This document shows positions 20,976-42,457 of a stretch of DNA of 64,000 bases, in pieces. This stretch comes from Blastomonas sp. GTDB lineage: Bacteria; Pseudomonadota; Alphaproteobacteria; Sphingomonadales; Sphingomonadaceae. The DNA lies in the NCBI RefSeq assembly GCF_030373265.1, contig NZ_JAUCZC010000004.1, forward strand, positions 124,001 to 188,000. Direction: 5' to 3'. The stretch's first letter is position 1. Each line of letters starts with the position of its first letter. The notes below the pieces were generated by a model. The model saw only the letters and a list, made by a program, of their open reading frames with translations, was not told the origin of the DNA and searched no databases. Both the position numbers and the translations under genes were made by a program.

Positions 20976-21470
20976 ATGGCGGCGCTGCATATCCGTGATG
21001 CCCATCCGGCAGACGGGGCAGCGCTCGCCGCGATCTACGCACCCTTTGTGACTGAGACCTGGGTGAGTTTCGAGACGGACGCGCCCGATGCGGCTGAAAT
21101 GTCCGCCAGGATTGCCAGCAATGGCCGCACGCATGCCTGGGTTGTAGCCGAGCTCGACGGGGACATTGCAGGCTATGCCTATGCGAGCCCCCACCGGGTC
21201 CGCGCAGCTTATTCCACATCTGCTGATATCGCGGTCTATGTCGCGCCTCATGGACAAAACATGGGCCTCGGCCGGGCACTGTACACCGCCTTGTTCGATC
21301 GGCTGCGCGCGCGATCCATCCACGCGGTGTTTGCCGGGATCGCCCTGCCCAACCCTGCCAGCATCGCATTGCACGAGGCGATGGGTATGACACCGGTCGG
21401 AATTTACCGCGAAGTCGGCTGGAAGCTGGACGGCTGGCGCGATGTCGGCTGGTGGCAGCGGTTGCTATGA
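20976..21470 (+). CDS. GNAT acetyltransferase, phosphinothricin acetyltransferase-like
   Basis: A 164-residue GNAT enzyme. IRDAHPADGAALAAIYAPFVTETWVSFE and YAYASPHRVRAAY, the AcCoA loop HGQNMGLGRALY, and the C-terminal LHEAMGMTPVGIYREVGWKLDGW are strongly PAT/Bar/MddA-like. Relatives acetylate the alpha-amine of phosphinothricin, methionine sulfoximine or similar amino acids. The physiological substrate is unproven. It starts 9 nt after gapR and is probably co-transcribed. Confidence 0.88.
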   Translation: MAALHIRDAHPADGAALAAIYAPFVTETWVSFETDAPDAAEMSARIASNGRTHAWVVAELDGDIAGYAYASPHRVRAAYSTSADIAVYVAPHGQNMGLGRALYTALFDRLRARSIHAVFAGIALPNPASIALHEAMGMTPVGIYREVGWKLDGWRDVGWWQRLL

Positions 21471-21539
21471 ACCATCTGGCTGGTGTAAAGGCGCGCACCA
21501 GCATTCGCATCACCTCAACTATACAGGCAGACATCCGCC

Positions 21540-22283
21540 ATGGCAGGCCATAGCAAATTCAAGAACATCATGCACCGCAAGGGCGCGCAGGACAAAAAGC
21601 GCTCGGCGATGTTTTCCAAGCTCAGCCGCGAAATTACCGTGGCCGCCAAGATGGGGATGCCTGATCCCGACATGAACCCGCGCCTGCGCCTTGCGGTCAA
21701 TGCCGCCAAGGCCCAGTCGATGCCCAAGGACAACATCCAGCGCGCGATCGACAAGGCCTCGGCTGCCGGCGGCGAAGACTATGAAGAAATCCGCTATGAA
21801 GGCTATGGCCCGGGCGGCATCGCATTGATCGTCGAGGCGCTCACCGACAACCGCAACCGCACCGCCACCAATGTCCGCACCGCGTTCAGCAAGAACGGCG
21901 GCAACCTGGGCGCATCGGGCGCGGTCAGCCACGGCTTCGACCGCATGGGCCTGATCAGCTATCCCGCCAGCGTCGGCGACGAGGAGAAGGTGCTTGAAGC
22001 GGCCATGGAAGCCGGCGCCGACGACATCGAATCCACCGAAGACGGCCACGACATCTGGACCAACATGGAAGACCTTCACGCGGTCTCCGGCGAACTGGAA
22101 AAGACGCTGGGCGAAGCCGAGAGCGTCAAGCTCGCCTGGCGCCCACAGGTTCGCGTCGATGTCGCCGAAGCCGATGCGCAGACGCTGTTCAAGCTGATCG
22201 ACGCGCTCGACGATGACGATGACGTCCAGACCGTCTGGGGCAATTACGAGGTTTCCGACGAGGTGATGGAAAAGCTGGGGTAG
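21540..22283 (+). CDS. YebC/PmpR family regulator/translation factor
   Basis: A 247-residue protein with the unmistakable start [20 protein letters not shown], then [23 protein letters not shown] and [18 protein letters not shown]. The family was described as transcriptional regulators (PmpR controls quinolone signalling); more recent work on relatives points to relief of ribosome stalling at proline-rich stretches. It is the first gene of the yebC-ruvCAB block, and the repeat-bounded DUF559 gene follows after 45 nt. Confidence 0.93.
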
Positions 22284-22290
22284 CTCGAAA

Positions 22291-22329
22291 AAAGCCCCTC
22301 CCCTTCAGGGGAGGGGTTGGGGTGGGGAA
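22291..22329. repeat. left arm of a 39-nt perfect inverted repeat around the DUF559 gene
   Basis: Positions 22291-22329 are the exact reverse complement of 22693-22731. The arm itself contains a hairpin (CCCCTCCCC, TTCA loop, GGGGAGGGG) and a G-rich tail (GGGGTGGGG). It begins 8 nt after the yebC stop and ends at the first base of the DUF559 start codon. Confidence 0.95.
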
Positions 22330-22733
22330 TGGACAACACACTTCGCTTGTCTCTGTTCGCAAAGGAATTGCGCAACAACCCGACCCCATTCGCAATTGTC
22401 CTCTGGAAGTATCTGAAGAGCTCGCAACTCGGCGGCTACAAGTTCCGCCGTCAATCGGTCATCGGTCCGTTTATCTGTGATTTCCTGTGCCCGTCCAAAG
22501 GACTGATCGTGGAGGTGGATGGTGACACGCATGACCCTGTGCGGGACGCGAAACGCGATGCCGCTCTGGCCGAACTGGGATACGTCACCATGCGGTTTAC
22601 GAACTACGAGGTTGGGCAGAGCGTTGAAGCGGTCCTTGATCTGATCCTGCAAAAGTTGGACAGCTTACCTGATCGATGGCCTGGGAAGTTACTTCCCCAC
22701 CCCAACCCCTCCCCTGAAGGGGAGGGGCTTTGA
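22329..22733 (+). CDS. DUF559 Vsr-like endonuclease-fold protein in a repeat-bounded unit
   Basis: A 134-residue protein. [19 protein letters not shown], then [31 protein letters not shown] and [20 protein letters not shown] form the DUF559 domain, a PD-(D/E)xK/Vsr-like fold with Asp and Glu-x-Asp as candidate metal ligands. The start codon sits at the inner end of the left repeat arm. The last 12 sense codons ([12 protein letters not shown]) are encoded by the right arm, and the stop TGA straddles the arm's outer edge. Gene and repeats thus form one compact unit of about 440 bp between yebC and ruvC. Enzymatic activity is unproven. Confidence 0.88.
22693..22731. repeat. right arm of the 39-nt perfect inverted repeat
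   Basis: Exact reverse complement of 22291-22329. It encodes the C-terminus of the DUF559 protein, contains the hairpin CCCCTCCCC-TGAA-GGGGAGGGG, and ends at the ruvC start. The GGGGAGGGG (22719-22727) is placed to act as the ruvC Shine-Dalgarno sequence. Confidence 0.95.
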
Positions 22734-23212
22734 TCATCCTCGGCATTGACCCTGGCCTTGGGACCACCGGCTGGGGTGTTATCCGCTCGGTGGGTAACCG
22801 CCTCAGCCACATCGCCAACGGCCAGATCAAGACCAACGCCAAGGCCACTCTGCCTTCGCGCCTGTTGGAGCTCGACACCGCGCTGGCGGCGATCATCACC
22901 GACTATCGGCCAGACAGCGCGGCGATCGAGGAAATCTACGTCAACAAGAACCCGCAATCGACGCTCAAGCTGGTGCAGGCGCGTGGGGCGCTGATCCTGG
23001 GCTTGGCGCGGGCCGGATTGAGGGTGGGCGAATATGCACCGCGGCTGATCAAGAAGGCGATCGTCGGAACCGGCGCGGCCGAAAAGACGCAGATCGACGC
23101 GATGGTGCAGGTGCTCCTGCCAGGCGTGAAGATCGCCGGACCCGATGCGGCCGATGCGCTGGCGGTGGCGATCACCCATGCGCATCTGGCGGGGCATGAT
23201 AAACTGCGCTAA
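22730..23212 (+). CDS. ruvC: Holliday junction resolvase RuvC
   Basis: A 160-residue endodeoxyribonuclease that resolves Holliday junctions delivered by RuvAB. The acidic catalytic residues lie in [15 protein letters not shown] (Asp), [14 protein letters not shown] (Glu) and [17 protein letters not shown] (Asp pair). The start is TTG at 22730, overlapping the DUF559 stop; both the start codon and the purine-rich SD derive from the right repeat arm. No alternative start exists that would keep the first strand. The protein is full length and should be functional. Confidence 0.96.
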
Positions 23213-23243
23213 CCCCAACTTCTCCCTCGGAAGGGAGAGGGAA
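23213..23243. repeat. REP-like hairpin between ruvC and ruvA
   Basis: Directly after the ruvC stop, CCCCAACTT leads into TCTCCCT-CGG-AAGGGAGA. The layout (CCCCAAC, C-rich half stem, short loop, G-rich half stem) is the same as the right arm of the DUF559 repeat but with a different stem sequence. The G-rich half also serves as part of the ruvA leader. Confidence 0.7.
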
Positions 23244-23252
23244 AGATACAGC

Positions 23253-23852
23253 ATGATCGCCAAACTCACCGGAACACTCGACAGCATCGGGCATGATCAT
23301 GCGGTGATCGATGTCGGCGGAGTCGGCTATCTGGTGTTCGCCTCGTCGCGCACGCTGTCGGGCCTCGCTGCCCGGGGCGACAGAGTGGTGCTGCACACAG
23401 AGATGCAGGTGAGCGAGACCGATATGCGGCTGATCGGCTTTGCATCGGCCAGCGAGCGTGATGGTTTCCGACTGCTCACCGGCGTGCAGGGCGTGGGATC
23501 GAAGGTGGCGCTGGCGATCCTGTCCGCGCTTACCCCCGAAGAGCTCGCGCGGGCCGTGGCGCAGGGCGACAAGGCGATGATCGCCCGTTCGCAGGGCGTG
23601 GGGCCGAAGCTGGCGCTGCGCATCGTCAACGAACTCAAGGACAAGATGGGCGCAATGGCGCTTGGCCCGGCGGGCATGGGTATCCCGGCGCTGGTCGGCA
23701 ATCACGCCGCCGATGCCGTCTCCGCGCTGCAGAACCTGGGCTTCAAGCCCGCCGACGCGGCAAGAGCGGTGGCAGGCGCCGAGGAGGAACTGGGCGAAGG
23801 CGCCAGCCTCGACGCACTGGTGCGGTTGGCGCTCAAGAAGGCGGCGCGGTGA
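23253..23852 (+). CDS. ruvA: Holliday junction branch migration protein RuvA
   Basis: A 199-residue protein. The N-terminal OB domain ([29 protein letters not shown]) is followed by helix-hairpin-helix repeats ([20 protein letters not shown] and [19 protein letters not shown]) and a C-terminal UBA-like domain ([20 protein letters not shown]) that contacts RuvB. It binds Holliday junctions and directs RuvB. The ATG at 23253 is the family start, 40 nt after ruvC. Confidence 0.96.
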
Positions 23853-23898: not shown

Positions 23899-24150
23899 AT
23901 GGCAGAGCTCACCATCTCCATTCCACCCTCTCTGAAGAATTGGATCGACGCGCGTATCGCTCAGGGTCTTTATGCGGACGCGACAGACTATGTTCGCGAC
24001 CTGCTGCGCCGGGATCAGGAGCAGGCCGCGGACGACAGCGCATGGTTGAGAGCTCAGATCGAGGAAGGGCTGGCATCCGGTATCGTCGATGCCGAGCCGG
24101 AAGATGTTCTAGACGCGATCATCGCCGAAGACCCCGATCTGCGTGGCTAG
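23899..24150 (+). CDS. parD: ParD-type antitoxin
   Basis: An 83-residue protein with an N-terminal ribbon-helix-helix (AELTISIPPSLKNWIDARIAQGLYADATDYVRDLLRR) and an acidic C-terminal tail (EEGLASGIVDAEPEDVLDAI) that should wrap the toxin, the classic ParD plan. The RHH part would bind the promoter for autoregulation. It overlaps the parE start by 8 nt. It lies between ruvA and ruvB, where alphaproteobacteria normally have no gene. Confidence 0.9.
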   Translation: MAELTISIPPSLKNWIDARIAQGLYADATDYVRDLLRRDQEQAADDSAWLRAQIEEGLASGIVDAEPEDVLDAIIAEDPDLRG

Positions 24151-24445
24151 GCTGCGCATCGCAGTTGCGGCGCAGAACGATTTGCGCGACATCAGGATCT
24201 ACAGCAAGGCGGCCTTTGGCGCTGTCACAACCCAGCGGTATCTGAACGGGTTACGGGCCACCTTCAGCCACCTGCGAGCAAGTCCGTTAATCGGTACATC
24301 AGAGGAACATCTGGGTTTCGCAATGCGCAGTTTCGGGTACAAGTCGCATCGCATCTATTTTCGCAGCGCAGACGATGAAGTTCTAATCGTTCGCATTCTG
24401 CACCATGCCAGAGACGTACCGACCTCCATGACCGCCGAACAATGA
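24143..24445 (+). CDS. parE: ParE/RelE-fold toxin
   Basis: A 100-residue basic protein: [23 protein letters not shown], then [22 protein letters not shown] and [25 protein letters not shown]. This is the ParE plan (family members poison DNA gyrase), with the usual arginine and histidine close to the C-terminus. It starts with GTG inside parD (8 nt overlap). Its TGA stop overlaps the ruvB ATG (ATGA), so ruvB translation is probably coupled to the toxin gene. Confidence 0.9.
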
Positions 24446-42206: not shown

Positions 42207-42280
42207 GGTCCGCGTGATGTGGCGTCAGCGGGGCGGCAGGTCAATGGGGCTTTGCTTCCAAGACGTGTGCTCAGCTAAAC

Positions 42281-42457
42281 CTTCTCCCTAGATGGGAGAA
42301 GGATAGCGTAGCTTGGCGGCGCAGCCGACTAGCGGAGCTTGGATGAGGGTGAGGCTAGAGTGCGTAACAACGCCAGCGCGGCTGCCCCCTCCCCCAGCTT
42401 CGACTAGGCAGCAGGCTGCCAGGTCTGCGCAACCCTCTCCCTCGAAGGGGAGAGGGG
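42281..42457. repeat. two REP-like hairpins between uvrC and atpF
   Basis: CTTCTCCC-TAGAT-GGGAGAAG at 42281-42301 and CCCTCTCCC-TCGAA-GGGGAGAGGG at about 42433-42457 bracket a region with GGAGCTTGGATGAGGGTGA, a sequence type that often accompanies such palindromes in sphingomonads. The second hairpin abuts the atpF stop and may terminate the F0 transcript. Confidence 0.65.

Follow-up and report, generated by a model that had tools for sequence, protein, structure and literature searches.

Palindrome-bounded DUF559 nuclease genes as a probable mobile unit that works like a REPtron

Between yebC and ruvC of a Blastomonas genome, a gene of the DUF559 family is enclosed by two inverted copies of a BoxC-like palindrome, and the association between DUF559 genes and such palindromes is, with near certainty, a general one. 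We consider that palindrome, gene and inverted palindrome probably form a mobile unit, resembling a REPtron in its working but built on an unrelated, Vsr-like nuclease. That these parts would move together is supported by comparison among genomes, namely by the bracketing of the gene, the copying of whole units, derivatives without the gene, empty sites, covariation and selection. Because the same pairing of gene and palindrome occurs in many other bacteria, DUF559 is a good candidate for the agent that disperses the repeat.

Within the window (the whole 64,000-nt stretch of DNA that was analysed), the element occupies 443 nt (Table 1). A sequence-only reading had described a perfect 39-nt inverted repeat around a DUF559 gene between yebC and ruvC, with a coding sequence running from the inner edge of the left arm to a stop codon on the outer edge of the right one, and this description holds in both parts. 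The arms, each 39 nt long, are 100% complementary and make up the longest pair among the 15 inverted repeats listed within the surrounding 3 kb; the left arm supplies its final base to the ATG (22329-22331), while the TGA (22731-22733) opens on the final base of the right arm, so that the last dozen residues of the protein are encoded by the palindrome. An alternative, longer version of the protein could start from a TTG at 22317, inside the left arm. A search of 21400-23400 against Rfam returned nothing at the gathering threshold. At 23899-24445 of the window, a pair of short ORFs resembles, as judged by eye, a ParD/ParE-type antitoxin/toxin pair.

Table 1. Features of the element at yebC-ruvC (window positions)
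Feature	Position	Strand	Remarks
yebC	21540..22283	+	Left neighbour of the insertion site (Pfam); bare junction in G006
Left palindrome	22291..22329	+	BoxC/TM plan; dispersed elsewhere in own genome
Stem C-arm of left palindrome	22295-22304		Followed by loop TC
Stem G-arm of left palindrome	22307-22316		Followed by loop TT
Third-strand tail of left palindrome	22319-22328		Directed toward the DUF559 gene
DUF559 gene (PF04480)	22329..22733	+	134 aa; Vsr-like fold
Right palindrome	22693..22731	-	Exact reverse complement of left palindrome
ruvC	22730..23212	+	Right neighbour (Pfam); TTG start overlaps right arm and DUF559 stop

Each arm can fold as a hairpin (-11 kcal/mol; z of -1.9 and -2.3) with its G-rich tail on the gene side, and both arms carry a 10/10/10 intrastrand-triplex motif with zero mismatches, arranged as CCCCTCCCCT-TC-AGGGGAGGGG-TT-GGGGTGGGGA. 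The earlier reading had called each arm a REP-like hairpin; their plan is that of BoxC/PIT/intrastrand-triplex motifs and not that of GTAG REPs. Neither window arm has the GTAG tag of REPs, and the features of CGTC REPs (a CGTC/TGTC foot, AT at the stem base and a CCA tail) are absent from them as well.

BoxC/PIT/triplex repeats were discovered in the 1990s. According to Holder et al. 2015, the motif, called BoxC, PIT or TM, has 23 copies in MG1655, with five inverted pairs, is found in more than 260 genomes and is associated with instability; that paper reports no mobility gene nearby and calls the origin of the motif unclear, and its main text names neither DUF559 nor ycjD (PMC4666352). The window palindrome fits this known motif in having a C/T stem arm, a short loop, a G/A stem arm, a short second loop and a G-rich third strand, as well as in its intergenic position and its occurrence in inverted pairs (PMC4666352); it differs from the published account in that it brackets DUF559 genes. 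Searches of open-licence PMC papers returned no account of a link between DUF559 and REP or BoxC/PIT/triplex repeats, and one may have been published elsewhere.

E. coli has a DUF559 gene of its own, ycjD, which is matched in 3365 of the 5426 genomes of this species. Its neighbours in K-12 MG1655 and 118UI are sapF and fabI (formerly envM), and BoxC-plan motifs are present on its downstream side but not upstream (L376, L379); in 118UI one of these motifs overlaps the 3' end of the gene. Among the works to which the BoxC paper credits the discovery of the repeat is one on envM (PMC4666352). Counting against the mobile-unit reading, the flank test described below leaves both ycjD of E. coli and the DUF559 gene of the gonococcus unbracketed, with scores of 9 and 10. 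We considered E. coli as a clean empty-site system and rejected it, as two strains that lack ycjD have an RND efflux cluster beside fabI instead.

The window protein matches PF04480 (DUF559) with 102.9 bits (cut-off 20.6); its Pfam matches list no Y1_Tnp and, at E up to 1, no Vsr family, and PADLOC returned nothing for it. The nearest named relative is Blastomonas sp. AAP53, at 89% identity. In an alignment of 88 sequences, R34, Q35, D44, E55, D57, G58 and R82 (alignment numbering) are invariant; D44, E55 and D57 correspond to D51, E62 and D64 of the window protein, and H68 is nearly invariant. These residues are consistent with a site of the PD-(D/E)XK type. Among structures, the best match to the AlphaFold2 model (pLDDT 93) is NGO0050 of the gonococcus (3hrl; Z 16.3, 42% identity), followed by the homing endonuclease I-Bth0305I (Z 11.7) and by Vsr (Z 10.0); TnsA follows at Z 6.4-6.5, a range that may reflect a mere common fold. 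With dN/dS among three orthologues (G000, G002, G004) at 0.056-0.063 for dS 0.84-1.17, the gene is maintained by strong purifying selection. Between G000 and G002 the 39-nt arms do not differ by a single letter, and G004 departs from them at one base in one arm, whereas in the more distant G005 the same G is missing from both arms, as if the two had been corrected together.

How widely DUF559 genes are bracketed was surveyed in 230 genomes drawn evenly from the class Alphaproteobacteria, 61 of which have PF04480. Flanks of 250 nt per side were compared as ungapped inverted repeats (+1/-2), and a locus counted as bracketed at a score of at least 12. The count covers 93 near-full-length loci, that is, 95 (91 fetched and 4 from the Blastomonas genome itself) minus 2 at contig edges, and leaves out partial PF04480 matches and one DUF559 gene at a contig start. 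Matched inverted palindromes flank 76 of the 93, compared with 23 of 665 other ORFs from the same regions, the flanks being measured from the domain edge for DUF559 and from the ORF edge for the control genes; with ORF-edge windows, 58 of 95 DUF559 loci are bracketed. Raising the score to at least 20 leaves 45/93 against 2/665, and at 30 or more none of the 665 control genes remains, while the window locus scores 39. A bracketed locus is present in 55 of 67 flank clusters and in 44 of 55 genomes. Outside the class, among other Pseudomonadota, 22 of 32 DUF559 loci (15 taken as best matches, a further one being cut and dropped, plus 17 picked from the list) are bracketed, against 3 of 105 controls. 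Loci with DUF559 thus carry palindromes more often than they lack them, a comparison on which the sequence-only reading had staked its case; the 17 unbracketed loci of the class nonetheless count against the mobile-unit reading. Since 11 of 20 Y1/RAYT-like loci, picked by hand, are bracketed in the same ORF-edge test, the rate for DUF559 is close to that of the accepted REP/RAYT example. A further set of named sphingomonad loci (48/48 bracketed, 2 of 50 being too near a contig end) was discarded as independent evidence, the 50 loci falling into 4 site clusters.

Most of the arms share a common plan, CCCTCYCCC-loop-GGGRGAGGG followed by a G-rich tail such as TTGGGGTGAGGGG. Among arms scoring at least 14, 58 of 65 are of this GAGGG type and 7 contain a CGTC-like string, and we therefore rejected CGTC palindromes as the partner of DUF559. 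Left and right arms match at 82% within their own locus, at 33% when swapped within a genome and at 14% when swapped between genomes. The triplex motif occurs in 32 of 55 upstream arms scoring at least 16, where shuffles predict 0.5, and in 9 of 665 control windows; G-quadruplex potential is present in 30 of the 55 against 2.7 expected from shuffles. We prefer the triplex motif as a label, triplex being the published description. Two observations on the arms count against the mobile-unit reading. The G-rich side is directed away from the gene in 13 of 52 loci (score at least 16, unequal G and C). Within genomes, the agreement between protein and arm similarity is lost (rho 0.18, p 0.18) once pairs of at least 60% identity are dropped, and an apparent within-genome co-divergence of protein and arm subtype was set aside, being accounted for by near-duplicates.

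Covariation between gene and palindrome extends to whole genomes. Palindromes were counted in the 230 genomes by the pattern CCCTCYCCN{3,8}GGRGAGGG, which misses some subtypes, such as that of the G194 arms. At least 10 palindromes are present in 26 of 61 DUF559-positive genomes but in 2 of 169 negative ones (p 2e-15), and when one DUF559-positive and one DUF559-negative genome were paired in each of 21 families, the positive one is richer in 14, poorer in 2 and equal in 5. G152 (29 palindromes) and G186 (11) are palindrome-rich exceptions without a DUF559 match, and they count against the mobile-unit reading. For G152, the cause may be that a contig is missing or that a different enzyme is the partner; this is a 1.4-Mb genome, many of whose 29 palindromes stand in doublets (L288, L290, L292, L294, L296, L298, L300, L302). 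Conversely, 12 of the 61 DUF559-positive genomes lack the palindrome pattern, an observation that speaks against the mobile-unit reading. Y1/RAYT genes show no such relation, 6 of 49 Y1-positive and 22 of 181 Y1-negative genomes having at least 10 palindromes (p = 1).

In the Blastomonas genome itself, the arm has 67 matches on both strands, the element included, and the pattern finds 69 palindromes. The four DUF559 genes found there are all bracketed, each by its own palindrome subtype, left matching right, and no Y1_Tnp exceeds the cut-off. Eight gene-less doublets, chosen from strong matches, were inspected, and all eight have their hairpins outward and their G-rich tails inward, which is the geometry of the gene-bearing unit; the DUF559 gene takes the position of the spacer of a doublet. 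Three of the eight continue into GGGGAATGA, and the gene-bearing arm continues into GGGGAATGG. A second GAGGG-type palindrome pair in the window (42280-42456), about 150 nt apart with no gene noted between, adjoins uvrC and an ATP-synthase-like gene (labels from reading the translations).

Several genomes hold more than one DUF559 copy, up to nine in G020, and in five of them a pair of paralogues at unrelated sites shares 70-81% identical DNA across both gene and palindromes. For the G194, G064 and G127 pairs the alignment is bounded on both sides by the outer palindrome edges. For the G104 pair, the BLAST ends coincide with the edges or miss them by a few nt, and a looser alignment extends about 45 nt rightward; for the G079 pair the alignment stops short within the palindromes, and in one copy a palindrome is incomplete.

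The sites themselves are polymorphic, the unit occupying tight intergenic gaps. At yebC-ruvC, nine genomes of the genus were compared: four carry the whole element, two a different palindrome dimer, one has lost much of the gene while retaining both arms, one has a solo palindrome, and G006 has a bare, palindrome-free gap of 25 nt. The possibility that this junction is always filled, which would have told against the sequence-only reading, is thereby answered in the negative. At yqeY-dnaG (61 genomes of the G020 genus searched, 30 examined as loci, 27 resolved; genes by Pfam), the junction is bare in four of 27 (G520, G545, G566, G571), with 14 nt between flank probes and stop and start codons about adjacent; ten have DUF559 (nine by motif, G020 by PF04480), two a GIY-YIG gene inside another palindrome pair (by motif, with Pfam on that of G559), and in 11 neither gene was detected. 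Upstream of dnaG, this tight gap (L148, L408-L437) is, depending on the congener, empty or filled by GIY-YIG units, by other palindromes or by DUF559 units, the last in several subtypes. In L428 (G574) and L435 (G535) the palindromes there belong to one more class, marked by GCAGAGGCGCGGAGGCGCAGAGA and the complement of this sequence, with neither kind of gene detected inside. Counting against the mobile-unit reading, target-site duplications do not rise above chance (mean 1.58 against 1.34 +/- 0.18 permuted, n=53; at least 5 nt in 1/53), though the edges could be placed only to within a few nt. The sufB-sufC gap of Sphingomonas parapaucimobilis YK209 contains a DUF559 gene of 54% identity whose palindromes have the 22-nt core in common with the window element, and among 72,556 plasmid records a megablast search with the window element matches only 7, all of S. 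parapaucimobilis (CP155749 to CP155756), at 84 places.

A mechanism may be outlined from these comparisons. The DUF559 protein, Vsr-like and with a conserved D and ExD, would recognise its own palindrome in single-stranded DNA, where this takes up a hairpin or an intrastrand-triplex fold, and would nick it; host replication or repair could then insert or copy the segment bounded by palindromes into a new place. Doublets without the gene would have arisen from such units by internal deletion and would be moved in trans, as is proposed for REPINs and RAYTs. The likeness to REPtrons and REPINs lies in the small enzyme gene between inverted palindromes, in the gene-less inverted doublets and in subtype-specific genes in genomes with several subtypes (PMC3733652). 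Unlike REP/RAYT, however, the enzyme is a DUF559 protein with a Vsr-like fold and not an HUH Y1 transposase, and palindrome abundance tracks DUF559 rather than Y1. The suggestion of an analogue of REP/RAYT based on an unrelated enzyme gains support from this difference across the 230 genomes. The unit thus works like a REPtron but is placed outside that family, because the Y1 enzyme and the GTAG tag that define it are absent here.

Homing copies a gene into a fixed target. The sequence-only reading had left open whether the unit is a minimal mobile or a homing element, and of these two, movement of the whole unit is favoured by arms shared between paralogues and by empty sites. Under homing, the doublet would be the target: DUF559 would cut gene-less doublets and repair would copy the gene into the spacer, the palindromes having spread by other means. 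The position of the gene at the spacer of a doublet accords with this, as does the fold match to I-Bth0305I, which shares the mobile single-gene logic of the window element; here, though, the palindromes belong to the shared unit, since paralogues have arms as well as gene in common. Homing into pre-existing palindromes is less favoured also because some unfilled sites have no palindrome, the bare gap of G006 at yebC-ruvC and the four bare yqeY-dnaG junctions being no doublets. Precise loss may instead have emptied these sites, but on balance we regard homing as unlikely. Much the same degree of doubt attaches to the view that DUF559 is a passenger, cargo between palindromes that are moved by a distant RAYT, host recombination or replication slippage. 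The palindrome-rich genomes without a DUF559 match and the unbracketed minority of class loci would suit a passenger; Y1 genes that do not track palindromes and are missing over cut-off from the Blastomonas genome, arms matched locus by locus, the rarity of bracketing among control genes and a different palindrome class around GIY-YIG genes would not.

A house-keeping role seems to us very improbable. DUF559 would then be a Vsr-like repair nuclease acting on mismatches or lesions, and the palindromes would be retained next to its gene as transcription terminators or as triplex regulators. This view draws on the Vsr fold, on the strong purifying selection and on Caulobacter VsrA, a protein that contains a DUF559 domain and has been proposed as a mismatch endonuclease (PMC12907096). 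In Caulobacter without the methylase ScmA, the SOS response depends on VsrA (PMC12907096), and at least one member of the family therefore seems to damage DNA in vivo, which counts in favour of the mobile-unit reading; the words 'palindrom' and 'repetitive' do not appear in the main text of that paper (PMC12907096). Vsr is akin to the window protein in fold, and VsrA has the DUF559 domain, but both are marked by mismatch repair tied to a cytosine methyltransferase. Such a role leaves unexplained the presence and absence of the gene at fixed sites, the several copies per genome, the sharing of arms together with the gene between paralogues and the genome-wide covariation with the palindrome. 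The mobile, palindrome-bounded unit accordingly remains our preferred reading.

A parallel pair of gene and palindrome came to light at the site of the C22 DUF559 element of G000. In six congeners (G003-G008) this site is filled by an insert that inverted palindromes of the CGTC type enclose. In G006 the insert is a GIY-YIG gene (Pfam; L272:2083-2409 and flanks), and the other five look alike by eye. With the G006 protein as query, matches were found in 70 of the 230 class genomes. Of 30 loci sampled, 6 were cut by contig ends, and 17 of the remaining 24 are bracketed (L304-L333), as are 27 of 40 taken from the upper part of the match list (L334-L373; controls for the 40: 3/77). Arms scoring at least 14 are of the GAGGG type in 1 of 33 cases and strictly CGTC in 20, several of the other 13 being CGTC-like by eye; the palindrome classes of DUF559 and GIY-YIG hardly mix. 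The paper on CGTC REPs, reportedly by Di Nocera and co-workers, dates from 2013. It describes these palindromes as commonest in alpha-Proteobacteria, mainly as head-to-head dimers, and as having no dedicated transposase, and GIY-YIG does not figure in its main text (PMC3733652). They differ from the window palindrome in sequence, and here they bracket GIY-YIG and not DUF559. A search of open-licence PMC papers for GIY-YIG together with 'repetitive extragenic palindromic' found none.

Taken together with the known pairing of GTAG REPs and HUH enzymes, BoxC/triplex palindromes with DUF559 and CGTC palindromes with GIY-YIG raise the tentative, about evenly balanced but slightly doubtful, prospect that bacterial genomes harbour selfish palindromes as a general class of parasite, every type of palindrome having its own small nuclease of unrelated fold, the latter two moving DNA by a plain nuclease and host repair and with no transposase. 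The spread of BoxC/triplex and of CGTC palindromes becomes directly testable with two small proteins, and one DUF559 protein is encoded in E. coli K-12 (ycjD). If the reading is correct, the REP/RAYT life style would have arisen more than once, on unrelated enzymes, the scattered distribution of a nuclease family without an assigned function would be explained, and a mechanism would be offered for the genome instability reported at BoxC/PIT/triplex motifs.

Beyond the genomes drawn for the survey, five of eight DUF559 loci from plasmid records scored at least 12 and three below, two of these three adjoining DUF1156 or PglX genes of defence-like operons; the three low scores count against the mobile-unit reading. 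Among DUF559 genes of cyanobacterial plasmids (L380, L381, L382, L383), which adjoin PglX or DUF1156 in defence-like operons, two of four are unbracketed by the flank test. In Pseudanabaena (L385), a DUF559 domain and a flanking 52-nt inverted repeat lie within a 4.9-kb reading frame, as if inserted in frame.
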